From Ascidia mentula (Eukaryota; Chordata; Ascidiacea; Phlebobranchia; Ascidiidae): 64,000 nucleotides of DNA. The stretch is taken from the NCBI GenBank assembly GCA_947561715.1, contig OX387199.1, positions 7,569,001 to 7,633,000 on the forward strand. Direction: 5' to 3'. The position numbers were made by a program, and so were the translations under genes. Numbering within the stretch: the first letter of the stretch is position 1; each line of letters opens with the position of its first letter. A model generated the notes under the pieces. The model made no database searches, was not told where the DNA came from, and saw only the letters and a program-made list of their open reading frames with translations. Below, in pieces: positions 1 to 32,251 of the stretch.

Positions 1-3000
1 AAAATCAAATATATTGTCAACTGCACCTGCTGGAGTGTAAGAGCAAGATGGAAGACTTCCATTTCTTTTAACTACGTCATGTTTTTCCAGGGAGCACAAT
101 TCCTCTTGGTTTCGATTTGCAATCTTCAAAATTATAAAAAATAAACTTGGTATATAAATTTAGGCATATATACTATACTGGGCAAAATTAATCACTGACC
201 AGTTTACTTTTCTGTAATATTTCTGTTTCCCCCACAGCCTGGTTTTCATTCAACGATCTATAAATTGTATGTTGTTGGTTTTTCTTTCCTTCCATTTCGC
301 TCAATTCTTTCCTCAATGAATCGAGAATTGTTTCAATGATGAATATTTTTGTTTCCGAGTCATTTTGAAGATCTTGATTTTTGAAACTGTCAATGGAGTC
401 TGAAGCTTCGAGTAGAGGTTCAAGCAACTCTTGAAATTCCGAATACTTAGGCGATGATAATTCTTCCGACGAATTGAAAGACGATGCAGAGCTCATTTTA
501 AAATAAGGAATAGAGTCATTTTCTGATGACGAGATATTCTTTGACTCCTTAGTCACATTTTCGATGCTTGAAGAAGCCTCGTTGTGCAATTGTGCCAAGT
601 CCATTTGTTTTGAGACACAAGATCCTGAAATTTAATGAAATGATTAAATATGTGAAATAAATTTTTATTTATTGCAATTCAGCACCGTTGCTAGAGATTA
701 CATTTGGTACTTCGACATCATCAAAGACCGGTGGTAAAATTTGATCATCTAAACAAAACAGCAAAATTTGTTTTTAAATTATCGTTGAAAGATTAAAGAA
801 CGTAATTTGTTTACTGAAAACACGGTTTAATCTCGCATCGAAGTGGCCACACCGCACTTTAAAACAATTAAGTTTCCTGATTTTAAGTAAAATCGTCGCA
901 AAAATACGCTTGATTTATTTGTAAAAAATTAACGTGAATGTAACATGCATCATGCTTCTCCTAACTCGGGGTAAATGCCAGTTTTTCCGAGACCATTGTA
1001 CACGTAGGGGATATTCATCATGTTTTGGGAAATTACTTCACCAAGGAATTTTGTTAGCACGTTGTGCGTGTTATAAGTAGTGTGGATTTGAAACGTAATT
1101 TTGTCGTAAATCTGTTATGCAACGTAACTAAAAAAAACGTTTTTTTCCAAAAATGTCGTTTTTTTTGTGATATAGTCCATATATGATTTCATGCAAATTG
1201 CATCAATAATTTATGTTGTTGTTTAACTTAGCACTGTGTTCAAGTTTGTTGCACTTTATCGATGATTTCCCTTTTAGCATAGCAATATTCCACACATGTA
1301 AACGTCAACAAATTATTTGGTACACCTGCAAAATTACCTCTTGTATTTGTGAAATTTGTTCGGGACTTTATGTCTTTTAGCTTCTGCTTGTCAGTATTCT
1401 TCAGTTGCTACAAACAGTTCAACAAATTAATATTTACAGTTGGAAAATTAGGACCATATAACAAGTTACCTCAAATATTGCTTTGTTCTCTTTTTTTTCG
1501 TCCACCGACTGTAGCACAGCAATCTCTTTTGTGTCGACTGCGGGTTTTGGCTGATAAAATAGTATAATATCGTTTGTTTCACACTTTCAACAACGCCTTA
1601 GTAATTACAAGGTGATTAAGACTTACCTTTCCATTATCCCCACTAGAAGATGTACCGGGAACTTCTGCGTCAGCAGTAGCCCGGTCTGAAGATTTCTTTT
1701 TCTTACCGAAAATTCTATTCTTAAACCATTTCAACAAACCTCCAGTTTTTTTGTTGATCGGTTTTACTCTTTTGCGATTTAGGCGTTCTGGAGAAAATAT
1801 TGGTTTACAAAAAATCAGATTTAAACCTAAATCAAACTACACCACATAAACTGACCTGGGTGGACATACTCTGTTTGGTGAATACTTTCAAAACTTTCAT
1901 TGGACTCATTAATACAAACGGTTGCCGGTATTTTTGTATGGCCGTTTTCAAGCCTTAAATGAGTCTCTTCGAGCTTCAGATTCTCTAATTTGACGGCTTT
2001 TAAAGGCTTTGTGGTTTGTCCTGAAAGGGTAGCAGATTTTACGTGATTTAATAACACACATTCGAGCAAATTGCCATAAAATTAATATTTAATGGCGGAT
2101 ATTTTACCTGGGAGTATTTTTCTTATTATTTTCTCCTTCTTCTGCCGCTTTCCAAAATCGTCGACAATTTTGCGACTGCTTTCATATGGAATGAGGGAGT
2201 CTCCTGTTTTCTTGAGATTCGGAGTAGGAGAAGATTCTCGAGACAAATCCGAAGAAGAAACGTTACCAGGTTTATCCGTTGCACCACCTACAAAATGCAA
2301 AGTGGGAGGTTAAAGGAAATTAAATAACTAAATTATCCCATTCACCATTTGGAATGTATGCGGAACAAAATGGAAGTTTTTCAATTATTTCAGCCTTCTT
2401 GCATTTCTCCACTTCTCCAAATTGGTGTTGGTTTTGATCTGGAATCTTCGATATAAAAACAAACATAAGTTTATGGCTTTGTGGTAAATTATTGAGTAGA
2501 ATTTAATTACTGACCAGTTTGTGTTTCTTTATTATTTCAGTGTCCATTGTTATAACACTATTGTTATTCGCATCCACTACAAGTGGAATTACAAGGACAT
2601 CTTCTGGTGTTATACTGCATTTTCCAAAATGGGACAAAACCATACAGTTGCCATCCTCATTTACTTTGGATGTAGAATTTGAACTGATGTTGTCAGGAAA
2701 ACCAACAGCTGTAACCCACTCTTGCTCAGGACGAGCAATATTAAAACTTAATGGCCAGCTTTGGTTTGCGTCTAAATCAACTGTATTACAAAGTTGGACG
2801 CATTTTTCGATGCTGGCTATTGGCGGCAAATTGTCATCTCGGATTTTTTGCCATACTTGTAAAAGAGGTAATTCGTCGAGGGTTTGCGTAACTTTCGGCA
2901 TCCCAAGAGTTGCTTCTTCATCGCCACTTGCTAAGATCGGCGAAAAACCAAGTGAAGTATTTTCGTCGTTCTCAATTTCTTTACAGCCAACTTCCTTGGG

Positions 3001-4451
3001 ATAGGTTGTAAACCGCCATATCTCGTACACACTTGTACCATTTGTATCTTGACGAGGCAGGCGTATTTGAATACCAAACTCGTCAGCAGTGTGATGACCA
3101 GGGATTGCTTTGTTTTTTAAGAACACACGACGCTCTTTAATCAGATCTCTTCTCTGGAGGAGATAGTTTGAGACGTAATTCGATTGATATTTGTACACTG
3201 CGAACCAAAAAACAACATTACAATGTCTCCATATTTTAATAACTTTGTAAAACTTACATGGATTTTCTCCAATTGCCTTCAGTTCACTGCGTAACAGTGG
3301 CTGAAAATGATAATGGGGTTTAAATACATTAATGTCGTTGATTGCGATAAACTGTTGACAAAGATACTTACATATCTCGGAACACAGAAAGAAGTTAAAT
3401 CCAAACCCATCATAAAAATTCCAAAAAGTAAAATTCCACTAAACGATAAACTATAGTTAATGGACTGAAAAAAGTTTTTGCAATGAGACGACTTACATTG
3501 ACCAAAGATCTGCAAAGATAGCGTTGTATCCGCGAATTTTCATTAGTACCTCCGGAGCCATGTATGGTGCTGTGCCACATTGGTTAGTAGGCTCAGTTAA
3601 CATGGCCAGGAGCTTTTTTTGAACATTTTTGTTGCTGTTTGGATCCAACATTGGAATCTCAGTGGCATAGCCAAAGTCTCCCAATTTTACCTCTTCGTCC
3701 TCCGATACAAAAATGTTTTCTAGCTTTAAATCCCTTTGGAGTGAATGTTATTTTGTATTAAAAAATGTTTGATTATTTGTTCGCAAATTTAAATCCTACC
3801 GATGAGCGATGTTGTTTTCGTGCAACTTCTGCACTCCACATATCAGTTTTTTAAAGTAAAATTTGGCAGTTGTTTCTAACAAATACGGCACACTTCTGTT
3901 CTTATGAGCCAAAGAATGCAAAACCTGCTTCAAATTGCCTTTTGCGGCATATTCCGTGACCAGATAAATCCTCTTGTCAGAGACAAAAACATCCAGTAAC
4001 ATTATCTAAAAATAATTTATTAAAATACCACAGCAGTTTATCAGTAACGACAAAAGATACGTACAATGTTGGGATGTCCAAACACTTTGTTCAAAATGCT
4101 GATTTCGTTGGGTACGCACTCGGCCAACTTACTCAGTCTTGCAGCACCAAGATCAGCATAAATAATCTTAATTGCAACCTAGTACAATATTGAAAAGCAT
4201 TAAAGAAAATGCCAATGATAATGAGCTAATATTGTACAACATATTTGTTTAACCTTTAGTTGCTTCCCAGTTTCACTGATAGCTCTCATTTTTTCCTTGT
4301 TGGCAATTGTGTCTGCCATCACATCTGCCGAGAATACCCGGCCAACTGCCCCACCACCAAGAAACTTGCTCTCTGCCATGTCATAGCCCTTACTATGACA
4401 CGCAGCTTTTTCCTTCTTCAACAATCGACTTTGGAAACGACGATCCATTGT
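1..4451 (-). CDS. Kinase-family paralogue A, C-lobe deleted (3' end just past window edge)
   Basis: Spliced minus-strand gene, about 90% or more alike by eye to copy B at 27783-32251. ATG at 4451 opens MDRRFQSRLLKK; the glycine loop reads LGGGAVGRVF and later exons give HRDLK, DFG (GDFGYATE) and APE (APYMAPEVL), so the N-lobe and catalytic loop are intact. The exon that follows (about 3374-3439) goes from the start of helix F (IGILLFG) straight to MMGLDLTSF, skipping some 240 bp present in copy B. The frame is kept, but kinase subdomains IX to XI are missing. The tail exons (3198-2503, about 2300-2100, 2069-1850, 1790-1630, 1560-1470, 604-188 and 125-1) match copy B one by one. The last codons (DNIFDF) run to base 1, and copy B has its stop a few bases further on. 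Probably transcribed but catalytically dead, or a young pseudogene. Confidence 0.8.
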
Positions 4452-4878
4452 TTTCTGTTGTATACAGATGAGATTTTGCAACAATTTGTAATGTACAACC
4501 GCACACTAGAATGCAAAACGAGGGTAATATATATATTTTTTCACACAGCAACCATCAACTTGGCTTCCCAAGATACGTTTCTGACGTCATAATGCTATTG
4601 TTTTAATTTGGTTGAGGTTTTTTGCAATGGTTGGGTATATTTTGATTGGACATTCTTTAAAAACATTACATATTTATAAGTGAGTGTGTATTTATGCAAG
4701 AAATGGTTTATTAAAATTAAAACAACACGATTATATCTGTCAGTTTGAGTTGAAAGTTGTATTTTCTAATAACACATGACTAAACCTAACCAAAAAATAC
4801 TAAAAACATAGAATATAAAATATTTTCGTGACGCATGAGTAGCACTTGGCGCAAAATGAAAAATGCATTGACTTAAAT
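4452..4878 (-). promoter_or_regulatory. Upstream region of kinase copy A with perfect CRE palindrome
   Basis: The 427 bases upstream of the copy A ATG hold the palindrome TGACGTCA at 4582-4589, about 130 bp before the ATG. The same octamer stands about 134 bp before the copy B ATG. CREB/CREM/ATF proteins bind this sequence, and CREM drives many testis kinases in vertebrates; that this kinase is controlled that way is inference. The region ends at the transposon target duplication 4870-4878 and its ancestral continuation resumes at 16008. Confidence 0.55.
4870..4878. repeat. 9-bp target-site duplication, left copy
   Basis: GACTTAAAT directly precedes the left inverted-repeat terminus GGAAATTATACTAACG. 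The identical nonamer follows the right terminus at 15999-16007. Confidence 0.9.
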
Positions 4879-5036
4879 GGAAATTATACTAACGTACACT
4901 CGGATTTTTCAGGTAACTATCACTCCTTAGTTTCCCCCGTATCATTTGTATTGGTTTCGATGCGGACTGGGGAATGTAAGGAAAAATAGCGGGAGACAAC
5001 TTCGTACGTACCTTGTGAAACCTGTTGTACGTCAGT

Positions 5037-8000
5037 TTCAGAAATTCATTGCGTTCAACGTCCACTCTGATTTTCGTGTACAGTTGCAAGGGCTTTAAGT
5101 TAGAAAATCATTGCGTTAAACGTACAACGCTGGTTTTTGTGTACAGTTGCAAGGGCTTTAAGAAATCCATTGTGTTTCACGACAACTGCATTATTTGTGG
5201 ACAATGGTATGTGCTTTCAGTCCAGAAACGCATTAGGATTAACTTCTGCTGTAATATAGGTGTACAGTTGCAATGGTTTTAAGTTAGAAATTCATTGCGT
5301 TCAACGTCCACTCTGGTTTTTGTGTAAAGTTGCAAGCGCTTTAAGTTAGAAAATCATTGCATTCAACGTCCACTCTGGTTTTTGTGTACAGTTGCAAGGG
5401 CTTTAAGTTAAGAAATTCATTGCGTTCAACGTCCACTCTGGTTTTTGTATACAGTTGCAAGGGATTTGATTTAAGAAATTCATTGCGTTCAACGTCCACT
5501 CTGGTTTTTGTGTACAGTTGCAAGCGCTTTAAGTTAGAAAATCATCGCGTTCAACGTCCACTCTGGTTTTTGTGTAAAGTTGCAAGGGCTTTAAGTTAGA
5601 AAATCATTGCGTTCAACGTCCACTCTGGTTTTTGTGTACAGTTGCAAGCGCTTTAAGTCAGAAAATCATTGCGTTCAACGTCCACTCTGGATTTTGTGTA
5701 CAGTTGCAAGCGCTTTAAGTTAGAAAATCATTGCGTTCAACGTCCACTCTAGTTTTTGTATACAGTTGCAAGCGCTTTAAGTTAGAAAATCATTGCGTTC
5801 AACGTCCACTCTGGTTTTTGTGTAAAGTTGCAAGGTCTTTTAGAAATCCATTGTGTTTGACGACAACTGCATTATTTGTGGACAATGCTATGTTCTTTTA
5901 ATCCAGAAACGCATTAGGATTAACTTCTGCTGTAATATAGGTGTACAGTTACAATGGTTTTATTTAGAAAATCATTGCGTTCAACGTCCACTATGGTTTT
6001 TGTGTACAGTTGCAATGGTTTTAAGTTAGAATATTATTGCGTTCAACGTCCACTCTGGTTTTTGTGTAAAGTTGCAAGGGCTTTAAGTTAGAAATTCATT
6101 GCGTTCAACGTCCACTCTGGTTTTTGTATACAGTTGCAATGGTTTTAAGTTAGAAATTCATTGCGTTCAACGTCCACTCTGGTTTTTGTATACAGTTACA
6201 AGGGCTTTGATTTAAGAAATTCATTGCGTTCAACGTCCACTCTGGTTTTTGTGTACAGTTGCAAGCGCTTTAAGTTAGAAAATCATTGCGTTCAACGTCC
6301 ACTCTGGTTTTTGTGTACAGTTGCATGGTCTTTAAGTTAGAAAATCATTGCGTTCAACGTCCACTCTGGTTTTTGTGTACAGTTGCAAGGGCTTTAAGTT
6401 AGAAAATCATTGCGTTCAACGTCCATTCTGGTTTTTGTGTACAGTTGCAAGGGCTTTAAGTTAGAAAATCATTGCGTTCAACGTCCACTCTGGTTTTTGT
6501 GTACAGTTGCAAGGGCTTTAAGTTAGAAAATCATTGCGTTCAACGTCCACTCTGGTTTTTGTGTACAGTTGCAAGGGCTTTAAGTTAGAAAATCATTGCG
6601 TTCAACGTCCACTCTGGTTTTTGTGTACAGTTGCAAGGGCTTTAAGTTAGAAAATCATTGCATTCAATGTCCACTCTGGTTTTTGTGTATAGTTGCAAGG
6701 TCTTTTAGAAATCCATTGTGTTTGACGCAAACTGCATTATTTGTGGACAATGCTATGTGCTTTTAATCCAGAAACGCATTAGGATTAACTTCTGCTGTAA
6801 TATAGGTGTACAGTTACAATGGTTTTATTTAGAAAATCATTGCGTTCAACGTCCACTATGGTTTTTGTGTACAGTTGCAATGGTTTTAAGTTAGAAATTT
6901 ATTGCGTTCAACGTCCACTCTGGTTTTTGTGTAAAGTTGCAAGGGCTTTAAGTTAGAAATTCATTGCGTTCAACGTCCACTCTGGTTTTTGTGTAAAGTT
7001 GCAAGGGCTTTAAGTTAGAAATTCATTGCGTTCAACGTCCACTCTGGTTTTTGTGTACAGTTGCAAGGGCTTTAAGTTAGAAAATCATTGCGTTCAACGT
7101 CCACTCTGGTTTTTGTGTAAAGTTGCAAGGGCTTTAAGTTAGAAATTCATTGCGTTCAACGTCCACTCTGGTTTTTGTGTACAGTTGCAAGGGCTTTAAG
7201 TTAGAAAATCATTGCGTTCAACGTCCACTCTGGTTTTTGTGTACAGTTGCAAGGGCTTTAAGTTAGAAAATCATTGCGTTCAACGTCCACTCTGGTTTTT
7301 GTGTACAGTTGCAAGGGCTTTAAGTTAGAAAATCATTGCATTCAATGTCCACTCTGGTTTTTGTGTATAGTTGCAAGGTCTTTTAGAAATCCATTGTGTT
7401 TGACGCAAACTGCATTATTTGTGGACAATGCTATGTGCTTTTAATCCAGAAACGCATTAGGATTAACTTCTGCTGTAATATAGGTGTACAGTTACAATGG
7501 TTTTATTTAGAAAATCATTGCGTTCAACGTCCACTATGGTTTTTGTGTACAGTTGCAATGGTTTTAAGTTAGAAATTTATTGCGTTCAACGTCCACTCTG
7601 GTTTTTGTGTAAAGTTGCAAGGGCTTTAAGTTAGAAATTCATTGCGTTCAACGTCCACTCTGGTTTTTGTGTAAAGTTGCAAGGGCTTTAAGTTACAAAT
7701 TCATTGCGTTCAACGTCCACTCTGGTTTTTGTATACAGTTGCAATGGTTTTAAGTTAGAAATTCATTGCGTTCAACGTCCACTCTGGTTTTTGTATACAG
7801 TTGCAAGGGATTTGATTTAAGAAATTCATTGCGTTCAACGTCCACTCTGGTTTTTGTGTACAGTTGCAAGCGCTTTAAGTTAGAAAATCATCGCGTTCAA
7901 CGTCCACTCTGGTTTTTGTGTAAAGTTGCAAGCGCTTCAAGTTAGAAAATCATTGCGTTCAACGTCCACTCTGGTTTTTGTGTAAAGTTGCAAGGGCTTC

Positions 8001-8220
8001 AAGTTAGAAAATCATTGCATTCAATGTCCACTCTGGTTTTTGTGTAAAGTTGCAAGGTCTTTTAGAAATCCATTGCGTTTGACGACAACTGCATTATTTG
8101 TGGACAATGCTATGTGCTTTTAGTCCAGAAACGCATTAGGATTAACTTCTGCTGTAATATAGGTGTACAGTTGCAATGGTTTTAAGTTAGAAAATCATTG
8201 CGTTCAACGTCCACTCTGGT
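5037..8220. repeat. Left-arm minisatellite, ~62-bp unit with ~680-bp higher-order repeat
   Basis: About 50 head-to-tail units of about 62 bp, each containing GTTCAACGTCCACTCTGG and GTACAGTTGCAAGGGC. A divergent segment with AAATCCATTGTGTTT and GCATTAGGATTAACTTC recurs at 5163, 5844, 6709, 7387 and 8066. The spacings are 681, 865, 678 and 679, so roughly eleven units form a higher-order repeat and one interval has about three extra units. Open frames across it are by-products of the repeat. Confidence 0.95.
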
Positions 8221-9347
8221 TTTTTTATTGTTGTTGTTCCACTTCTAAGAAATGGAAGATAAATATGTAAATTTGTTTGTAGATTTAATTTGGACAATTT
8301 TTTAGCAACCAGTCAAGACATAACTATGTAATTCAAGACATATTTGCCAAATGTTGATGTTTTAAATACTTTGTTGACAATTGCCAAAAAAATATGACAT
8401 GTAAAACAGGTTTATTGTATTTTTGGTTCATGAATAAAAAGGTTTAGTAGAAAGGTTGTCAAAAATGAGCTTGTTGAAAAATTTTTACTTTTTGGTGGGT
8501 TTTTTTGATGACCGAGAGTTACGTCATTGCCGAACTTGCATACCTGTGCCAAGGTCCCTTTGGGTGGAAGGCATAGGCCCAATAAGGTAACATTGCACAG
8601 AACTTTTGTGAATTTTTGTAATTATACTTTTTTTCAGCTGCAAACCTTTGGTTCAAGTGGACTTTTCAAGTTCAAACACTGTGATAAGGGTGCGTAACGA
8701 AACAGTGCTTCTCAAAATATCCTACCAGCTACATTACTTTGCTTTTTTGTATTTTCCTGTAGTGGTTTCAGTTCAAACAGGAAGCAAACAATTTCATTCA
8801 GCAATTTGCAAGTTCGTTATCACTTGGTTGGAAAGACTGTTTGGATAAAATTTTTGGTAAATCCTGTGGTCAAACAGTAAACATATATAATTTTTGCAGT
8901 TTCATAATATAAACACATGATTTCATTTTGTTTAAATGTATAAATCTTGTTTGTCATGTTCATTTAGTCAACACTTACATGTTGAAGTTCTTCTATTCAG
9001 ACAAAAACTAGCAAATTTATGAATAAATGTGGGCAACATTATCTAATTTTAATTTAAAAAGTATTTTTGTTGTTGTATGCAGACCTAAGGAAAATACAAG
9101 TCCATTGGACACACGACTCTGGCATTCCATATGTTATTATTCATGCAAAGTATAAGATATCATTTTGGATCAAGGACAAAACTTGCACTGAAAGTGAATG
9201 CCAATACGAAGCTACTATATATGATGTATTGTTCTGTCCACAATACAAAAATGTGGTATTTCTATCCTCATACAAACAGTTTGCCTGTCCTTAGGCTGTT
9301 ATCCTATTATTATCCATTGTCTGTAGAATAAAAGTTCAAGTTCCCAA
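8221..9347 (+). other. Transposon core, possible 5' exons of the CARF-like gene
   Basis: No full gene is visible. The stretch 9085-9290, after an acceptor-like TTGTATGCAG, encodes a segment with IQVHWTHDSGIPYVII. This resembles IHWDQSTLIPFII in the recognised exon at about 9955, so it may be an extra or alternative exon copy. A second stretch, 8640-8847, is open but unrecognised. The first 350 bases after the satellite look non-coding. Confidence 0.3.
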
Positions 9348-10816
9348 ATGCGAACAGCAAACAATGTAATAAGAAAAAGACTTGAAAGCAACGATACATG
9401 CCTAACAAAGGAAACAGCATTTTTTGTGAAAATTTTTAAAAGGGAGTTCAAAGGGGCAACAGGTTTAATTAAAAAGGTTTGTGATTTTGTTTAATGTGTA
9501 CATATACACATGCATGTTGGCACTTAACATATGTACAGACGTTTGCACCAATCCATATGTAAAAACAAGAAAAAAATTTACAAGTAGGTGACTGTTTAAG
9601 GTTCAATACATAATAATACTTACTAAACAAACAAACATTTCTGCAGTGGGTTTATTCATTTGATCAAGCACGACAAGTGGTTCAACATTTTGAAGTTTCC
9701 ACACTTACAAAGTTCATCGTGAGAAAGATGGAAACATTTGGCATGTTTATAACAACATAGTATTTAAAGTACTTTTAGCAGTAAATGTGATTATGTGTGC
9801 AACATTTCTGATTGAAGGACTCACCATAAAGTCATTTTGTTCATATTCACATTTGCACAGTTTTTGTTCGTATTAAGTTGTTGTGAAAATGAACCTGTAA
9901 TGTACCACTATGGAGGTTGGGAATAGTTTTGTGTTTGTTGTAGATGTTTCCAAAAGTCGAATACACTGGGATCAAAGTACTCTAATTCCATTCATTATTT
10001 TAAAAAGTTTGTTTTTGGAATGCCACCAAGGCACTGATCGAAATAAGGGTTATAATGAAAGTCGCAAAGTACCCATTATAAAACAGGTATGAAATTTGAA
10101 CTGTATTAAGAAAGATAAGGAGCAACACATTTTAACAATGTTTTTCTTAGTTGCAAGATCACCCAAACCCTTGCAAAAAGCGACTTTATGTCCAGGGGAC
10201 CAAAAAAAGAAACTGTAAAGCAAAAATTTTTATTCAAGAAATCATGAAATTTCCACAGTTTCAAGTGAATCCTCAGTTGTGGTGTGATGTTCTTAAACTA
10301 TTGAACATATTATGTTTCAGGTATCAATAAAACGTTGGTCTGTTATGACAAAGTCAAGTATCATCATTAAAGATATGTTAAAAACTAATGATGAACACCT
10401 GATAAAGCAGTTTGCCTGCAGTATTTGCCTTCCCGAAAAAGACGCTCATACAGGTCATGTTTTGGGAGAGGCAAGTGTTTTGTCATTTGCACAATTATTT
10501 GCAGAAACACATGTTTAACCATATTAACTTCTAAAAGGCGGCAGGATTTCTTCAACCTGTGGATCAAAGGTTAATAGCCAGAATTGATGAATTGGTGGAC
10601 AATGGTGTCCACAGTGTTGAGGAAATTTTACGAAGTCTGAAGCATTATGTTACCCATGAATTGTTTAAAAATGAAGAGGCGCCATCCCTTTTCAACAGAA
10701 GGTTTTATCCAACCAAAAAGGACATCCAAAGCCATTACTATCGGTCATTTTCAAAGCATAAGCTTGCAAAGATTGATCAGACAAACGTTCAGTGTTTGGT
10801 GGATGAATGGACATGA
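9348..10816 (+). CDS. CARF/ALS2CR8-like spliced gene of the transposon
   Basis: Exons read as 9348-9476, 9647-about 9735, about 9954-10086, 10151-10264, 10321-10470 and 10538-10816. Most have clean GT-AG borders and the frame is continuous; the intron after 10470 starts GC. The protein contains FDQARQVVQHFEVST then KFIVRKM, next IPFIILKSLFLECHQGTDR, then KKRLYVQGTKKRNCKAKIF. The C-terminal part has FYPTKKDIQSHYYR and ends near LVDEW. This order (DUxxA-type N-terminal strand, ECxxG cysteine-histidine segment, KKxxC, then YPTxxDIxxH followed by K.DQxN) is what I know from calcium-responsive transcription factor-like (ALS2CR8 domain) proteins of many invertebrates. Such proteins bind DNA; here it may be the element's DNA-binding or transposase-related protein. 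The exon joint near 9735/9954 is not settled, and the gene may start upstream or continue past 10816. Confidence 0.6.
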
Positions 10817-11002
10817 ATGGATCTTACCCAAAGGGTGTAAACCGTACCTCTTAGGTTTCGACCTGATTGGTGTAACACTCACAAGAGTGATGGTAGAAAT
10901 TACCCGAAGGGTGTAAACCATACTATTTGTTTAACATTGGGGCCTTGAAAAAAATTATTGTATATTATTTTTAAAATTGGATGTGAATAAACCCAGTTTC
11001 AT

Positions 11003-11140
11003 ATGGCTACTGGCGAAGCGTCTGGGTCATCAAAAATGCCAACGACCACAAAGAAAAGTTTTACAGACTTTTTTGTTGCTACACACCATTCAAGGCTTCA
11101 ACATGTGTATGATCATCAACAAGACCTACGATCTCAGTAA
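11003..11140 (+). CDS. Possible small ORF or first exon in the transposon core
   Basis: ATG at 11003 opens MATGEASGSSKMPTTTKKSF followed by TDFFVATHHSRLQHVYDH, running to a GTAACA donor-like site near 11137. Nothing in it is recognised. It could be the first exon of a second plus-strand gene. No continuation was found with confidence; 11250-11560 is open in places but has no support. Confidence 0.25.
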   Translation: MATGEASGSSKMPTTTKKSFTDFFVATHHSRLQHVYDHQQDLRSQ

Positions 11141-11764
11141 CATTTGTCCAAGAACCGGCGACAAAGTCTTTGGATGTTTGTGAGGCCAAATGGCCTTATA
11201 TGACGCGAGCATCTATAACCATTCAAAAAATGATTTTACCGAGAATTAGATGATTTTTATTGTATTTCGATTTTACCTTTTGCTAATTACTTCCATTTTT
11301 AGTCGCATTCATTGCTCCTGGTACACTCGTTTGTGCTTCAGGTTTTTTCCTTATCTCCGCTACCACCTACTAGGTTCGCTACCACACTGTAGTTCACAGT
11401 TTGAGCTTCGTAAAGAGAGACTTCCAGTTGCAGCAGTGTTTTGTGTACATTTTATTGCTTTCATAAATGTAATTTTTGCAGAAACTAACGATGCTTATAG
11501 TAACCTACATCAAAGGCTCGTTGCTTCATTATATACAGGACCTACGATGGTTTAAATTATGCCATCGCTTTCACCTAAGTTGAAGCCTTTATGCCAATAC
11601 TTGGTGTTTATACTGTATTATTGTGATGTATGTATTAATACAGAAAACAAAACTAACTCTTTGGGAAAATTGCACAACAGTGGCAAATGAAAGAAATTCT
11701 TTTATTGTGCGACAATCTAAACAAATTGTTGTTGGTTAAAACTATGTATGTTGGCAAACACAAC

Positions 11765-14325
11765 AAAACTTACATCACACACTCCTCGCCTATAAAATAA
11801 AAGCAAAAATTATTTCTATTGCAAAACAATACCCAAAAATGTTAGGAAACTTACTCATTATTAGCTGGCCTTAAGGCCGCATCTCTCAATTAAATCCTAA
11901 AAATTGAGTTTTAGAAGTCATTTGTTATTGTGCACCTGGTTACAGTTTCAATTGCCGGGTCTGATGACTCATGAAGGGGGACTACTATTGCTGAACAGAA
12001 AAAAAATTGATTGCAGCTGCATTAAGACAGCACATTGGGGGGTTTTGCAAAGGCTAACTGCTAAATTGTCAGTCCTAGGGGGTGTACAAACAGCCCCGGT
12101 GGGGCCCCAAGACAATTACAAGACATCTAATTCTTCATGAATTGTGTAGAGGAGGGTTGGTGGCTTCACTTAATCGCAAATGGAGGTAACTTTCTGTGAT
12201 TCATTTTTTCACAAAACAAACCTACACTTTTTTCTGCTTTTTTGACCAAAATAATGGCCAACAGAGGGTCAAAATGTCCCCGGGGGAGCAGTTTAAGTAG
12301 TTATTTCCATCATAAATTTGGCCACAATTCCTTGCCAAGGGTCGGCACTAACAGAAAATCACAAATTGAACATACTTTCTGTGATTCATTTTTTCACAAA
12401 ATCAACCTCAATATTTGGGTAGTTTTTCAGCTACATGTACAACAGCACCCTCTACCAATTTACTGCCTGACTAATAACCCTGAAAACCAAAGTAAAACTG
12501 CCCCAAACACGCTGAAAATCGCCCTGGCAACAGCCTGTTCATCTGCGCTCATTCAACCAAAACACTGGCGCCCATGCATGACCCATTGCATTGTTACACA
12601 CAATTTTACTCTGTTACGCAGGAGTTCGAGAAGGGCAATTCCCAACCGGGAAAGTCTTTTCCATAGAAATACAGAGATGCGGCCTAAATGAGATTAGTTT
12701 TGGTTTAAAGTAATGCTTGAAGCACTTACATTATGAATGTTCTGACCTTCCTGTGGCTGTAAAACAATGTAAAAATGAGATTAGTTTTGGTTATGAAAAT
12801 TTAGCATGTTATTTATATTATAAATGTAATATTAGCATGTTAATTAATGTGGTATGCTACTTCATTATAAAGAGTTTTGGTAAATACATAGTAGTTTTAA
12901 ATCCCTGATATAATGCAAGGGGCTTATAAAATTAAAAACTAAGTTCTACCTGTGGTAAGTAAATAAAAACTGGATCAAAAAACCAAAGGCCCCTGGCAGG
13001 CTGTCGATCGCACACCGTATCAATAATAATGTATTAAAATCCCAACACAGCGATCTTTAGACAGCTCAGATCGATTTATTAAGAGAAAAATATATTTCGC
13101 CTAAAACGGCATCATCAGTTTCTCCATTAACCAAAACTTACATTAAGTTCTACCTGAAATGAAATCATTGAAAATAGTACAAAAGCACATACACAAAACT
13201 GCCCATGCTTTGAAATAAGGTTTTGTGTTTTTTATATATTGAAAGCACTTACATTGCTTTGTTGATGCCTTCTTGGCTGTTAGAAGCATGTAAAAAGAAG
13301 GGATTAGGTAAAAATGAAAAGTTTTACTATGGTGTAAATGTACTTACAACATGATTGCGCAAGGGACCTCTCCTGAAATGAAATTGGTTTAGTTTTTTTG
13401 CAATTTCAACAAAATATAAGTCAGTTGAAAAAATCAGGAAAAGATAAGGCTGAATAAGATTAGTTACAAACCATATACAGCTATTGTATAGAGATTGTTA
13501 AGTTTACAGACTTCACAGCCTAAGTTCCTGACAAGTGGAAGCGAAACGAGTTACGATATTTACTATCATTTGGCAGCGTGACCATTATCTAATACGTCAG
13601 ACACCTCTGTCATGTAATCATAACCAGAATTAGACGAAGTTTTGTTTGTTAAGAAAAGCATCTTAGTGTTTGCTTGTTACTGTAAACATGCTTGTTAAAG
13701 AGTTGCAAAAACAAGTTGCTAAGTTTAAAGGTGTCGACAAGAATAAATGTTAGATACCAGCAATGATATACAGTTTAGAGTGGAAAATCAGGAAATTTCT
13801 CCCAAAAAATTTGACCCAGAGCTTTCAAATATCCTGGATACGCCTATGACTACATATAATTAGTATGGAAATTTACCCTTTCAAAAAATTGTTGCCTTGG
13901 CAGCCACCTACAAAATAAAGACTTGGTTGGCATTACAACATTTTGGATGGCTCACATCAGGAAACACAATATACTTACACAGCGGCCTGTGGATTTTTGT
14001 TTTGTCTAAACAAGAAAAAAATATAGCATTTTAATCAGTTCTCAACCCGAATCAATCTTAATTATTTCATAATCAGCCCACTTACCGCTGTAGGTCCTCA
14101 AAAACATGACAAGGCAGCCATCTGCAACAAAACGCAATGGATAAAAATTATTCTAAAACAAATATAAGAAAACCCACATTTTTTGTTCTTGTCCTTGGAG
14201 CTGAAAGTAAAAAAAAAAAACGTTAAAGTAGAAGTAATAAAACGTTAAAATTCTGACATTACCCACGGGATGGGCGGCACATCGCCGTTGAAGTATTGCA
14301 CATTAAAGTTGCAGTTTATCTCCAT
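11765..14325 (-). CDS. Putative micro-exon gene inside the transposon
   Basis: Read on the minus strand, ATG at about 14322 opens MEINCNFNVQYFNGDVPPIP then W, spliced at GTAATG. A series of very short exons bounded by CAG/TAG acceptors and mostly GTAAGT donors follows, near 14171-14193, 14088-14123, 13990-14016, 13879-13909, 13348-13372 and 13245-13268; each is 23-36 bp. Joined in order the frame stays open through all seven, giving segments such as IWLPCHVFEDLQR, VWLPRQQFFER and SLAQSCSKKASTKQ. It reaches a stop a few codons into the next exon near 13144-13156. Further exon-like blocks with the same signals lie near 12724-12752 and 11771-11788. The WLP motif occurs twice, suggesting exon duplication. 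No family is recognised. It runs opposite to the CARF-like gene. Confidence 0.5.
11871..12687. mobile_element. MITE-like element with GGCCGCATCTCT inverted ends
   Basis: Starts TTAAGGCCGCATCTCT and ends with the inverse AGAGATGCGGCCTAAA, 817 bp apart. A shorter relative with the same ends and shared inner sequence (AATTGAGTTTTAGA, CCAATTTACTGCCTGACTAA) lies at 24855-25271. No coding capacity is seen and no clear target duplication was found. It is nested in the 11-kb transposon, just after a micro-exon donor. Confidence 0.6.
12953..13143 (-). mobile_element. ~190-bp retroposed-like insertion carrying a hammerhead motif
   Basis: TAAGTTCTACCTG occurs at 12940-12952 and again at 13144-13156, a 13-bp direct duplication flanking the 191-bp insert. 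Variable TSDs of this length are typical of target-primed retroposition. The insert has no ORF and contains a hammerhead-ribozyme-like motif at 13083-13125 on the minus strand. Penelope-like elements and small retrozymes are known to carry such motifs; assignment to either is inference. Confidence 0.6.
13083..13125 (-). ncRNA. Hammerhead ribozyme-like motif (type I layout, very short stem III)
   Basis: On the minus strand the order is GGAGAAA, CTGATGA, GCC-GTTTTA-GGC, GAAA, TATATTT, TTCTC. Both invariant core boxes (CUGAUGA and GAAA) are exact. GAGAAA can pair with UUUCUC as stem I, GCC with GGC as stem II, and the AUAUAU palindrome is a minimal stem III. Minimal palindromic stem III is known from hammerheads in Penelope-like elements, which act as dimers. 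Cleavage is not demonstrated. Confidence 0.55.
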
Positions 14326-14329
14326 TTTT

Positions 14330-15840
14330 AACTTTAAACCCTTGCAACTGTACACAAAAACCAGAGTGTATGTTAAAGGCAATGAATTTCTTAACTTAAA
14401 GCCCTTGCAACTGTACACAAAAACCAGAGTGTATGTTAAAGGCAATGAATTTCTTAACTTAAAGCCCTTGCAACTGTACACAAAAACCAGAGTGTATGTT
14501 AAAGGCAATGAATTTCTTAACTTAAAGCCCTTGCAACTGTACACAAAAACCAGAGTGCATGTTTAACGCAATGAATTTCTTAACTTAAAGCCCTTGCAAC
14601 TGTACACAAAAACCAGAGTGTATATTGAACGCAATGAATTTCTTAACTCCAAGCCCTTGCAACTGTACACAAAAACCAGAGTGTATATTGAACGCAATGA
14701 ATTTCTTAACTTGAAGCCCTTGCAACTGTACACAAAAACCAGAGTGTATGTTGAACGCAATGAATTTCTTAACTTAAAGCCCTTGCAACTGTACACAAAA
14801 ACCAGAGTGCATGTTTAACGCAATGAATTTCTTAACTAAAAGCCCTTGCAACTGTACACAAAAACCAGAGTGTATATTGAACGCAATGAATTTCTTAACT
14901 CCAAGCTCTTGCAACTGTACACAAAAACCAGAGTGTATATTGAACGCAATGAATTTCTTAACTCCAAGCCCTTGCAACTGTACACAAAAACCAGAGTGGA
15001 CGTTGAACGCAATGAATTTCTTAACTCCAAGCCCTTGCAACTGTACACAAAAACCAGAGTGTATATTGAACGCAATGAATTTCTTAACTCCAAGCCCTTG
15101 CAACTGTACACAAAAACCAGAGTGTATATTGAACGCAATGAATTTCTTAACTAGAAGCCCTTGCAACTGTACACAAAAACCAGAGTGTATGTTGAATGCA
15201 ATGAATTTCTTAACTTAAAGCCCTTGCAACTGTACACAAAAAACAGAGTGTATGTTGAACGCAATGAATTTCTTAAAATTAAAGCCCTTGCAACTTTACA
15301 CAAAAACCAGAGTGTATATTGAACGCAATGAATTTCTTAACTCCAAGCCCTTGCAACTGTACACAAAAACCAGAGTGTATGTTAAACGCAATGAATTTCT
15401 TAACTTAAAGCCCTTGCAACTGTACACAAAAACCAGAGTGTATGTTGAACGCAATGAATTTCTAACTTAAAGCCCTTGCAACAGTACACAAAAACCAGAG
15501 TGTATGTTGAACGCAGTGAATTTCTTAACTTAAAGCCCTTGCAACAGTACACAAAAACCAGAGTGTACGTTAAACGTAATGCATTTCTAACTTAAAGCCC
15601 TTGCAACAGTACACAAAAACCAGAGTGTACGTTGAACGCAATGAATTTCTAACTTAAAGCCCTTGCAACAGTACACAAAAAACAGAGTGTATGTTGAACG
15701 CAATGAATTTCTTAACTTAAAGCCCTTGCAACTGTACACAAAAACCAGAGTGTATGTTGAACGCAATGAATTTCTAACTTAAAGCCCTTGTAACAGTACA
15801 CAAAAACCAGAGTGTACGTTAAACGTAATGCATTTCTTAA
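14330..15840. repeat. Right-arm minisatellite, inverted relative to the left arm
   Basis: About 24 units of about 63 bp with CCCTTGCAACTGTACAC, AAAAACCAGAGTGTAT and GAACGCAATGAATTTC, the reverse complement of the left-arm unit. Units are more homogeneous here, and the divergent higher-order segment of the left arm is absent. The arm is less than half as long as the left one. Confidence 0.95.
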
Positions 15841-15998
15841 ACTAACGTACAACAGGTTTCACAGTATACGTTGGAAGTTGTCCCCCGCTCTTTTTCGTAC
15901 GATTCCCAAGTCCGCATCGAAACCAATACAAATGATACGGGGGAAACTAAGGAGTGATAGTTACCTGAAAAATCCGAGTGTACGTTAGTATAATTTCC

Positions 15999-16007
15999 GA
16001 CTTAAAT
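15999..16007. repeat. 9-bp target-site duplication, right copy
   Basis: GACTTAAAT follows the right terminus and matches 4870-4878 exactly. Confidence 0.9.
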
Positions 16008-27782: not shown

Positions 27783-30700
27783 TTATAATAAATCAAATAT
27801 ATCGTCAACTGCACCTGCTGGAGTGTAAGAGCAAGATGGAAGACTTCCATTTCTTTTAACTACGTCATGTTTTTCCAGGGAGCACAATTCCTCTTGGTTT
27901 CGATTTGCAATCTTCAAAATTACAAAAAAAGAAACTTGGTATATAAATTTAGGCATATATAGCCTAGTGGGCAAAATTAGGATCACTGACCAGTTTACTT
28001 TTCTGTAATATTTCTGTTTCCCCCACAACCTGGTTTTCATTCAACGATCTATAAATTGTATGTTGTTGGTTTTTCTTTTCTTCCATTTCGTTCAATTCTT
28101 TCCTCAATGAATCGAGAAATGTTTCAATGATGAATATTTTTGTTTCCGAGTCATTTTGAAGATTTTGATTTTTGAAACTGTCAATGGAGTCTGAAGCTTC
28201 GAGTAGAGGTTCAAGCAACTCTTGAAATTCCGAATACTCAGGCGATGATAATTCTTCCGACGAATTAAAAGACGATGCAGAGCTCATTTTAAAATAAGGA
28301 ATAGAGTCATTTTCTGATGACGAGATATTCTTTGACTCCTTAGTCACATTTTCGATGCTTGAAGAAGCCTCGTTGTGCAATTGTGCCAAGTCCATTTGTT
28401 TTGAGCCACAAGATCCTGAAATTTAATGAAATGATTAAATATGTGAAACAAATTTTTATTGTTTGCAATTCAGTACCCTTGCTAGAGATTACATTTGGTG
28501 CTTCGACATCATCAAAGACCGGTGGTAAAGTTTGCTTTTCATCACCTAAACAAAACAGCAAAAATTGTTTTAAGTTTTTGTTGAAAGGTTGAATAAAGCA
28601 ATCTTTTTACCAAGGAATTTTGTTAGCACGTTGTGCATGCTATAAGTAGTGCGGATTTGAAACGTAATTTTGTCGTAAATCTGTTATTCAACGTAACCAA
28701 AAATGTCGTTTCTTTTTGTGATATAATCCATATATGACTTCATGCAAATTGATTAAATAATTTATGATGTTGTTTAACTCGTCACTGTGTTTAAGTTTGT
28801 TGCACTTTATCGATGATTTTCATTTTAGCATAGCAATATTCCACACATGTAAACGTCAACAAATTATTTGGTACACCTGCAAAATTACCTCTTGTATTAG
28901 TGAAATTTGTTCGGGACTTGACGTCCTTTAGCTTCTGCTTGTCAGTATTCTTCAGTTGCTACAAACATTTCAACAAATTAATATTTGCGGTTGGAATACT
29001 AAGTCCATATAACAAGTTACCTTAAATATTGTTTTGTCCTCATCTTTTTCGTCCGTCGACTGTAGCACAGCAATCTCTTTTGTGTCGACTGCGGGTTTTG
29101 GCTGATAAAATAGTATAATATCGTTTGATTCACAATTTCAACAACGCCTCAGTAATTACAAGGTGATTAAGACTTACCTTTCCATTATCCCTGCAACTAG
29201 TAGATGTACCGGGAACTTCTGCGTCAGCAGTAGCCCGGTCAGAAGATTTCTTTTTCTTACCGAAAATTCTATTCTTAAACCATTTCAACAAACCTCCAGT
29301 TTTTTTGTTGATCGGTTTTACTCTTTTTGGCTTTAGGCGTTCTGGAGAAAATATTGATTCACAAACAATCAGATTTAAGCCTAAATCAAACTACACCACA
29401 TAAACTGACCTGGGTGGACATACTCTGTTTGGTGAATACTTTCAAAACTTTGAATGGACTCATTGATACAAACGGTTGCCGGTATTTTTGTATGGCCGTT
29501 GTCAGGCCTCAAAAGAGTCTTTTCGAGCTTCAGATTCTTTAATTTGACGGCTTTTGAAGGCTTTGTGGTTTGTCCTGAAAGGATAACAGATTTTACGTGA
29601 TTTAATGCCAAAGATTCGAGCAAATTGATAAAAAATTAATATTTAATGGCGGGTATTTTACCTGGGGGTGTTTTTCTCATTATTTTCTCCTTCTTCTGCC
29701 GCTTTCCAAAATCGTCGACAATTTTCCGACTGCCTTCATATGGAATGAGGGAGTCTCCTGTTTTCTTGAGATTCGGAGTAGGAGAAGATTCTCGAGACAA
29801 ATCCGAAGAAGAAACGTTACCAGTTTTTTCCGGTGCACCACCTACAAAATGCAAAGTGGGAGGTTAAAGGAAATTAAACAACTAAATTATTCCATTCACC
29901 ATTTGGAATGTATGCGGAACAAAATGGAAGTTTTTCAATTATTTCAGCCTTCTTGCATTTCTCCACTTCTCCAAATTGGTGTTGGTTTTGATCTGGAATC
30001 TTCGAAATAAAAACAAATATAAGTTTATGGTTCTGTGGTAAATTATTGAGTAAACTTTAATTACTGACCAGTTTGTGTTTCTTTATTATTTCAGTGTCCA
30101 TTGTTATAACACTATTGTTATTCGCATCCACTACAAGTGGAATTGCAAGGACATCTTCGGGTGTTACACTGCATTCTCCAACATGGGACAAATCCATACA
30201 GATGTCATCCTCATTTACTTTGGATGAAGAATTTGAATTGATGTTGTCAGGAAAACCAACAGCTCTAACCCACTCTTGCTCAGGGCGAGGAATATTAAAA
30301 CTTAGTGGCCAGCTTTGGTTTGCGTCTAAATCAACTGTATTACATAGTTGTACGCATTTTTCGATGCTGGCTATTGGCGGCAAATTATCATCTCGGATTT
30401 TTTGCCATACTTGTAAAAGAGGTAACTCGTCGAGGGTTTGCGTAACTTTCGGCATCCCAAGAGTTGCTTCTTCATCGCCACTTGCAAAGATCGGCGAAAA
30501 ACCAAGTGAAGTATTTTCGTCGATCTCAATTTCTTTACAACCAACTTCCTTGGGATAGGTTGTAAAGCGCCATATCTCGTACACACTTGTACCATTTGTA
30601 TCTTGACGAGGAAGGCGTATTTTAATACCAAACTCGTCAGCAGTGTGATGACCAGGGATTGCTTTGCTTTTCAAGAACGCACGACGCTCTTTAATCAGAT

Positions 30701-32251
30701 CTCTTCTCTGGAGGAGATAGTTTGAGACGTAATTCGATTGATATTTGTACACTGCGAACCAAAAAACAACATTACAATGTCTCCGTATTTTAATAACTTT
30801 GTGAAACTTACATGGATTTTCCTCAATTGCCTTCAGTTCACTGCGTAACAGTGGCTGAAAATGATACGGAGTTTAAATACATTAAATATGTTGATTGTGA
30901 TAAGCTGTTGCCAAACATACTTACATATCTCGGAACACAGAAAGAAGTTAAATCCAAACCCATCATCCAGGGATGACGTAATATTGTGCTTACGTCAGGC
31001 CTTTGCCAGGGTTTAATATTAAGTAATTGATGAACCAAATCCTTGCACTCTGTATACAAAAAATACAGAATATTGTTTGCTGAAGAATAAAGACTAACGA
31101 ATGTAACCAACCAAGAGAAACGCATTCACGAAATGGAAGATCTTTATTCTTTGAACTCTCATATTGGTCCAGGACCTCTTCCACGGTTTTCCCGGGAAAC
31201 GGATAAAATCCATTAACCACAACAAAAAGTATAATTCCACTAAACGAGAAGCTATAGTTAATGGACTGAAAAACGTTTATGTTATAAGACGACTTACATT
31301 GACCAGAGATCTGCAAAGATAGCGTTGTATCCGCGAATTTTCATTAATACCTCCGGAGCCATGTATGGTGCTGTACCACATTGGTTAGTAGGCTCAGTTA
31401 ACATGGCCAGGAGCTTTTTTTGAACATTTTTATTGCTGTTTGGATCCAACATTGGAATCTCAGTGGCATAGCCAAAGTCTCCCAATTTTACCTCTTCGTC
31501 CTCCGATACAAAAATGTTTTCTAGCTTCAAATCCCTTTGGAGTGAATGTTATTTTGTATTAAAATATGTTTGCTTATTTATTTGCAAATTTAAATCCTAC
31601 CGATGAGCGATGTTGTTTTCGTGCAACTTCTGCACTCCACATATCAGTTTTTTAAAGTAAAATTTGGCAGTTGTTTCTGACAAATACGGTACACTTTTGT
31701 TCTCATGAGCCAAAGAATGCAAAACCTGCTTCAAATTGCCTTTTGCCGCATATTCCGTGACCAGATAAATCCGCTTGTCAGAGACAAACACGTCCAGTAA
31801 CATTATCTAAAAATAATTTATTAAAATACCACAGCAGTTTATCACTAACGACAAAAGATACGTACAATGTTGGGATGTCCAAACACTTTGTTCAAAATGC
31901 TGATTTCGTTGGGTACGCACTCGGCCAACTTGCTCAGTCTTGCAGCACCAAGATCAGCATAAATAATCTTAATTGCAACCTAGTAAAATATTGAAAAGCA
32001 TTAAAGAAAATGCCAATATTAATAAGCTAATATTGTACAACATATATTTGTTTAACCTTTAGTTGCTTCCCAGTTTCACTGATAGCTCTCAATTTTTCCT
32101 TCTTGGCAATTGTGTCTGCCATCACATTTGCCGAGAATACCCGGCCAACTGCCCCACCACCAAGAAACTTGCTCTCTGACATGTCATAGCCCTTACTATG
32201 ACACGCAGCTTTTTCCTTCTTCAACAATCGACTTTGGAAACGACGATCCAT
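27783..32251 (-). CDS. Serine/threonine protein kinase with long variable tail (copy B, complete)
   Basis: Exons by my reading: 32251-32057, 31979-31866, 31806-31601, 31534-31298, 31239-31112, 31049-30925, 30854-30812, 30751-30065, 29992-29900, 29841-29662, 29574-29410, about 29341-29179, 29106-29020, about 28975-28895, 28545-28480, 28415-27987 and 27919-27783. The kinase domain is complete: GGGAVGRVF loop, VAIKII lysine, HRDLKLEN, DFG, APYMAPEVL, GIILFVVVNGFYPF, and WQRPDVSTIL with HPWM at the end. The fold and motifs are CAMK-like, closest to my memory of TSSK/MARK-type kinases. The tail is unlike anything I know. It has a basic stretch GGLLKWFKNRIFGKKKK, serine-rich SASSFNSSEELSSP, a likely coiled coil ETFLDSLRKELNEMEEKK and a final YTPAGAVDDIFDLL. 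The tandem family makes this the presumptive functional member. Confidence 0.85.

Follow-up and report, generated by a model that had tools for sequence, protein, structure and literature searches.

A MULE family of this tunicate probably carries, besides its transposase gene, a second, protein-coding gene made of micro-exons, which converges on the transposase gene, grows by tandem exon duplication and would encode an accessory protein, placed as mudrB is in maize. At the level of sequence, this reading draws on the transposon itself, its convergent layout, conserved splice junctions, coding-type change that falls largely in the joined frame, and tandem copies of micro-exons. Beyond that, we infer that the gene is transcribed from the right end and spliced in vivo, and that its product has an accessory function. 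One member of the family, copy A, lies in the window, that is, the whole stretch of 64,000 nucleotides that was analysed (C52:7569001-7633000; other copies are placed by the same contig labels).

The transposon in the window

Copy A occupies positions 4879-15998 of the window (11,120 bp), with both ends read directly. It is flanked by a target site duplication (GACTTAAAT), read at the element boundary at 4870-4878 and present as an exact copy at 15999-16007, and it ends in terminal inverted repeats at 4879-5032 (plus strand) and 15845-15998 (minus strand), which pair with each other at 92% over 154 bp. The duplication, 9 bp and exact in copy A and 8/9 in copy B, a complete element with terminal inverted repeats at both ends, lies within the MULE range of 8-11 bp, and terminal inverted repeats, often long ones, are likewise typical of MULEs. 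The sequence-only reading had placed the gene inside a DNA transposon, and these boundaries bear it out.

The transposase gene of copy A is a remnant with an internal deletion. Its open stretch on the plus strand (10535-10813) matches ALS2CR8 (CARF-like; Pfam PF15299, E=4.2e-12). Approximately 2.2 kb that follow the CARF stretch in copy C are missing from copy A, and with them a SWIM zinc finger (PF04434, E=6.9e-07 in Pfam), which many MULEs have. Relatives of the CARF region were found at 10 places with 69-72% identity among 40 scored of 239 candidates, and a PF10551 (MULE) match lies about 175 bp downstream on the same strand in 10/10 of the relatives listed. The catalytic MULE-type DDE domain had no Pfam match in the fragments of copies C and D that were searched, and its region is deleted in A. 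We accordingly class the element as a MULE whose catalytic part appears to be lost in copy A; the window copy is a decayed, non-autonomous member of its family.

Inside the terminal repeats lie two subterminal tandem arrays, which are one minisatellite in inverted orientation, with a 62-bp unit on the left (5040-8224, 51.6 copies) and a 63-bp unit on the right (14324-15840, 24.1 copies). Elsewhere in the genome, the terminal repeat (15845-16000) is matched 17 times, and several of these matches are on contigs C1, C2, C70 and C71. The places on these four contigs have no listed match to exon 1 of the micro-exon gene, and are perhaps elements that lack it.

Several other repeats are found within the element. 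A dispersed repeat of about 380 bp (11132-11510) has matches on at least seven contigs; copies A and B both have it at this site, and most of it is gapped in copy C. A MITE-like dispersed repeat (11870-12691, ends approximate) also recurs regularly, every 1887 bp or so, at C52:10.73-10.89 Mb, where it belongs to a tandem satellite, and a 190-bp dispersed repeat lies at 12951-13140. A block of about 70 bp (10985-11060) is 87-99% identical at 39 other places (40 scored of 49 candidates). Several of these places belong to related MULEs, where the block follows the CARF part at a distance of 3-4 kb; in the CARF part itself, the identity of those MULEs is only about 70%. This block is unusually conserved, and may be coding or cis-acting. 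Outside the element, very similar ORFs at 2503-3438 and 30057-30872 (311 and 271 aa) suggest by eye a local gene duplication, and three further ORFs, at 19520, 21823 and 27964, look related to one another, also by eye.

Predicted structure of the micro-exon gene

Eight short exons with consensus splice sites lie on the minus strand of copy A, from 14325 to 12730. Exon 1 (14263-14325, 63 nt; MEINCNFNVQYFNGDVPPIPW) begins where the right array ends, and keeps its ATG and its length in all six copies. Exon 2 (14178-14200, 23 nt), exon 3 (14086-14121, 36 nt), exon 4 (13979-14005, 27 nt) and exon 5 (13877-13907, 31 nt) follow across introns of 56-80 nt, and further inward are exon 6 (13348-13372, 25 nt), exon 7 (13253-13276, 24 nt) and exon 8 (12730-12756, 27 nt). 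The 190-bp repeat lies in the intron between exons 7 and 8. The sequence-only reading had described seven exons in one open frame, six of them 23-36 bp long and two with a WLP motif. We take these to be exons 1-7, which do join in an open frame in copy A, and the motif is found in exons 3 and 5. Exon 6 is 27 nt long in copies B and C; the joined frame of copy A is shifted from this exon on, and meets a stop in exon 8. The frame of exon 1 is also open into the array in copy A, and runs there for just 31-34 aa in copies D and C.

A candidate last exon, which we place at 11717-11789 (minus strand), is open to a TAG in one frame and ends 10 nt before an AATAAA hexamer resembling a poly(A) signal (11701-11706, minus strand), which is kept in copies A, B and C. 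The MITE-like repeat separates it from exon 8 in copy A. Alternatively, the exon at this site has just 16 nt (11789-11774) and is followed by a GTAAGT donor. Another possible last exon, at about 11051-10990 on the minus strand, falls in the block shared with 39 other scored places, where the changes in copy D favour by eye neither strand as coding. A 12-nt exon at 13153-13142 was rejected, as its donor in copy A lies at the end of the inserted 190-bp repeat and, by eye, copies B and C have no such donor.

The second gene would thus start beside the right subterminal array, presumed to be its promoter side, and run inward toward the transposase gene. In copy A, it extends from 14325 to about 11717 on the minus strand and the transposase remnant on the plus strand ends at 10813, so that the two genes converge without overlap. 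The layout of copy C is of the same kind, with transposase-type ORFs on the plus strand at 7390-9572 and micro-exons on the minus strand at 13741-10752 (coordinates of the copy C stretch). Of the antisense position claimed earlier, the opposite strand therefore stands, whereas the overlap with the transposase gene was rejected.

Copies in the genome and the origin of the gene

The exon 1 peptide was found at six places in the genome, with no internal stop in any of them: in copy A and in copies B (C52:9428690), C (C52:14134260), D (C52:9556013), E (C52:17653656) and F (C71:12854742). A single chromosome, C52, holds five of these six. Flanking matches show that five places are copies of the same element, and that F, which is truncated after exon 1, is a truncated relative. 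Matches to the later exons fall in copies A, B and C and in two relics of exon 8 at C72:5016439 and C72:5004869, the first of which has exon-8-like units, one with a decayed acceptor; in the stretch of copy D, none of the later exons were seen.

Only in copy C do the exons, 13 in number, join to a single long open chain (371 nt). Beyond the last unit of this chain, by eye, there is either an immediate stop or, via a weaker donor, about 22 further codons. In each of the other five copies, the frame is shifted, exons or junctions have been lost, or the copy is truncated. Copy B, for example, is without exon 5 and meets a stop in the last of its exon-8 units, and in copy E three junctions are lost, as is one base of exon 4.

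MULEs that carry non-transposase coding sequence are named Pack-MULEs, and in the same style an ancestral MULE might have captured a host micro-exon gene, or part of one, the conservation then coming from past or present use in the host. We consider this unlikely, though worth weighing. MULEs tend to acquire fragments of host genes (PMC6446971, accessible text), and the exon 1 peptide was found only in this subfamily, though related MULEs are many. However, no host copy was seen: the six exon 1 places are the five element copies and the truncated relative, and the later exons match just three of these copies and the two relics. The element is therefore like Pack-MULEs in carrying non-transposase coding cargo, and differs from them in that no parent host gene for exon 1 was found in this genome. 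A host gene that has diverged or been lost may still be the source.

Tandem duplication of micro-exons

That the gene grows by exon duplication had been suggested from the WLP motif shared by exons 3 and 5. Copies B and C now display tandem copies of micro-exons directly. Copy C has three 21-nt exons (encoding GRGGQRR, GRGRQRR and GLGGQSR), 145 bp apart, and three exon-8 units (27, 27 and 23 nt), 98 bp apart, two of which fall in the interval that is filled by the MITE-like repeat in copy A. Copy B has one 21-nt exon of the GRG type versus the three in C, and in addition an exon of 21 nt that encodes SRSPSYN and a second, 24-nt exon resembling exon 7. In copy C, as judged by eye, the acceptor of the SRSPSYN-type exon seems to be gone, and there is no second exon-7-like exon. 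A short match on C1 covers the intron beside the third GRG-type unit of copy C, and not the exon.

The repeat units include intron sequence, which indicates tandem duplications that carried whole exons, and because the copies differ in the number of units, growth by exon duplication can be observed directly. All of these exons in B and C are multiples of three in length, except the last exon-8 unit. Comparisons among the GRG-type exons themselves are too few to tell frames apart. Most of the distal exons in copy C, with 21, 24 or 27 nt and in phase 0, would have been multiplied as exon plus intron. With exons of this kind, the protein could lengthen, and exons could be skipped, while the frame is kept.

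Conservation of junctions and frame

The splice junctions are well preserved between the copies. Over six copies, GT/AG is kept by eye at 43 of the 46 junctions of exons 1-5, and all three losses are in copy E. The splice flanks, defined as the eight bases beside the exons, were compared with deep introns in four of the ten copy pairs. They differ at 1/70 sites versus 22/243 in deep introns between A and C, and at 1/70 versus 21/245 between A and D, with a weaker contrast for A-E (5/65 versus 27/187) and D-E (6/65 versus 25/189). Among copies A, C and D, exons 1-5 have no gapped positions, versus 4-6 in the introns.

Changes within the exons point to a reading frame that follows the predicted junctions. 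For six of the ten pairs among copies A to E, we counted the changed codons that keep their residue and placed the same base changes at random (4000 draws each). In the joined frame, residues are kept at 11/22 changed codons for A-E, 14/23 for B-E, 10/17 for B-D, 8/19 for A-C and 7/15 for A-D (P 0.0043 or less in each, the pairs of copies not being independent in these tests), and at 4/8 for C-D (P 0.08). The two wrong frames keep 0-3 residues in each of the six pairs. A different statistic gave P 0.0175 or less for A-D, A-C, B-E, D-E, C-E and A-E. When exon 1 was left out, five of the six tested pairs had P < 0.05, and A-D had 0.052. Exons 6-8, compared between B and C, keep 6/12 versus 1/12 in either wrong frame (P 0.055), and exon 1 alone gave weaker values (P 0.03-0.09 in four pairs; 0.014-0.39 in eight pairs by the other statistic). 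Where defined, dN/dS was 0.10-0.46 for the joined exons (9/10 pairs) and 0-0.32 for exon 1 (14/15 pairs). Spliced coding exons would leave a frame-specific pattern of this kind, and the result hinges on the junctions as predicted.

The exons are not slower than the introns. They differ more than the introns in 10/10 copy pairs, and, with the flanks set apart, at 10.7-22.3% versus 8.6-14.4% in four pairs (each Fisher P 0.08-0.48). The constraint is thus visible only in the pattern of change. Base composition is no simple explanation for the exon excess, which is found at both G/C and A/T sites in A-C and only at A/T sites in A-D.

Conserved exons could also belong to a spliced regulatory RNA of the element, non-coding or antisense, which might for instance silence the transposase. 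This alternative would agree with the junction flanks being the most conserved sites, and with transcription from the right end, which would converge on the transposase gene. We nevertheless regard it as improbable, since changes that keep residues fall mostly in the joined frame, even when exon 1 is left out, and since the start codon and length of exon 1 are invariant in the six copies. The protein-coding reading is the one we follow here. Random decay in the other copies would, in the sequence-only reading, have spoken against the gene; for the splice sites and frame of exons 1-5 it was not found, the junctions being mostly kept and the changes frame-specific. Real decay is present as well, however, in five of the six copies, all except C. 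In our reading, the gene would have been constrained during the active time of the family, and most copies of it are now decaying.

The predicted product

The chain of copy C encodes a predicted protein of 124 residues (the last one across the next junction), with a calculated pI of 10.4. It is rich in Q, R, N, G and P, and has repeats such as GRGGQRR, RSP and RRHQQ. The joined peptides had no match in Pfam (E up to 10; copies C and A) or in the PDB (E up to 1; copy C), so a proposed function rests on position and composition. The basic, Q/R/N-rich tail perhaps binds nucleic acid or the transposition complex, and the product would be an accessory protein of the element, positioned as mudrB is in maize. 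A Ulp1-like piece in copy C, noticed by eye through what we take to be the motif of that family, was rejected, as Pfam gave it no support.

The gene had also been likened to the micro-exon genes of schistosomes, which encode secreted variable proteins, and a gene of that very kind, now residing in a tunicate element, would share the architecture of short, largely symmetric and duplicated exons. The predicted product of copy C, basic and rich in Q, R and N, does not sustain this likeness. It has no hydrophobic leader, the best 11-residue hydropathy window at its N-terminus being -0.19 (Kyte-Doolittle), while in the accessible text on the schistosome genes all products have a signal peptide and the genes are apparently restricted to platyhelminths (PMC4350168). 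We therefore judge a secreted protein of this kind to be very improbable.

Chance as a source of the exon chain

Loose short exons were counted as an acceptor with a pyrimidine tract and a donor close to GTRAGT, 9-42 nt apart. Copy A has 10 such pairs on the gene strand in 2640 bp versus 1 on the other strand, three of the 10 being alternative ends of one exon; its shuffles have a mean of 1.9. Across the copies, the gene strand holds 10 (A), 13 (B), 16 (C), 4 (D) and 2 (E) pairs, some of which are alternative ends of the same exon, and the other strand 0 or 1. The observed count was reached by none of 300 shuffles in A, B and C, by one in D and by 17 in E. The same loose scoring yields 8 pairs in another 2.56 kb stretch of the window (plus strand, about 19.0-21.6 kb), versus 9 at the micro-exon gene; those 8 mostly have weaker donors and come in part from a local duplication. 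Given such a rival stretch, the pair count is by itself not decisive. Likewise, the probability of an open frame (product of open frames/3) is 0.30 for copy A and 0.039 for copy C, so that in copy A an open chain alone is not improbable and says little. The case, as we read it, rests on conservation across copies and not on the pair count. Chance splice-like signals in AT-rich transposon DNA, for which the easily open frame of copy A, the rival stretch and the shuffles of copy E would speak, are a highly improbable explanation, largely refuted by the shuffles of copies A to D, the conserved junctions, the frame-specific change and the in-frame tandem exon copies.

Comparison with known systems

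Among MULEs, the element may belong near Phantom. Phantom MULEs include tunicate elements, and the animal members are described with target duplications of 8-10 bp, terminal inverted repeats of 18-613 bp and one ORF or two; SWIM, FLYWCH or a minisatellite is found in some of them; the accessible part of this description does not mention a micro-exon gene (PMC6446971). In a word search, the available text of a 2026 arthropod MULE survey had no 'accessory', 'additional ORF', 'second ORF' or 'intron' (PMC13359780). Among the listed titles and starts of abstracts, largely outside subscription journals, we found no published report of a micro-exon gene in a transposable element.

In architecture, the gene works like the micro-exon genes (MEGs) of schistosomes. 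The available portions of the literature describe very short, mostly symmetric exons that could be skipped in frame, and one exon duplication in MEG-3 (PMC8293314, PMC4350168). Here, 12 of the 13 exons of copy C are at most 36 nt long, exon 1 having 63, and all exons from exon 1 to the last listed unit, these two apart, are symmetric in that their length is a multiple of 3, except exons 2 and 5 (9/11). Introns of 0.1-5 kb in MEGs (PMC10526429, accessible part) compare with 56-995 nt in the chain of copy C. In contrast to the schistosome genes, this one is carried by a DNA transposon, in a tunicate, and has no hydrophobic leader. It is not filed as a MEG, because in the same partial sources MEG products are described with a signal peptide and the genes appear restricted to platyhelminths (PMC4350168, PMC8293314, PMC10526429).

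Tentatively, we propose as a possibility that a DNA transposon has evolved a micro-exon gene of its own, for a modular accessory protein whose length and repeats change fast by tandem in-frame exon duplication and could vary further by exon skipping. If this is true, the element perhaps varies a protein that meets its own ends or the silencing by its host, and micro-exon genes arose independently of flatworm parasitism, within a selfish element. So far, they have been tied to host-parasite variation in flatworms, to which they are apparently restricted (PMC4350168, accessible text). The same architecture would now be found in a transposon of a free-living chordate, whose copies differ in the number of tandem units.

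The gene would also be an animal counterpart, in layout, to maize mudrB. In the maize element MuDR, mudrA and mudrB are convergently transcribed from promoters in the terminal inverted repeats (PMC3440606), and mudrB, a protein of unknown function, is apparently required for integration (PMC6446971), according to the accessible parts of both sources. Those parts place the promoters in or just inside the terminal repeats, and they make no mention of micro-exons or tandem exon duplication for mudrB (PMC3440606, PMC6446971). The hosts differ as well, maize in one case and an animal in the other. Likened by layout alone, both are the second gene of a Mutator-superfamily element, start near the end opposite to the transposase gene, and converge on it.
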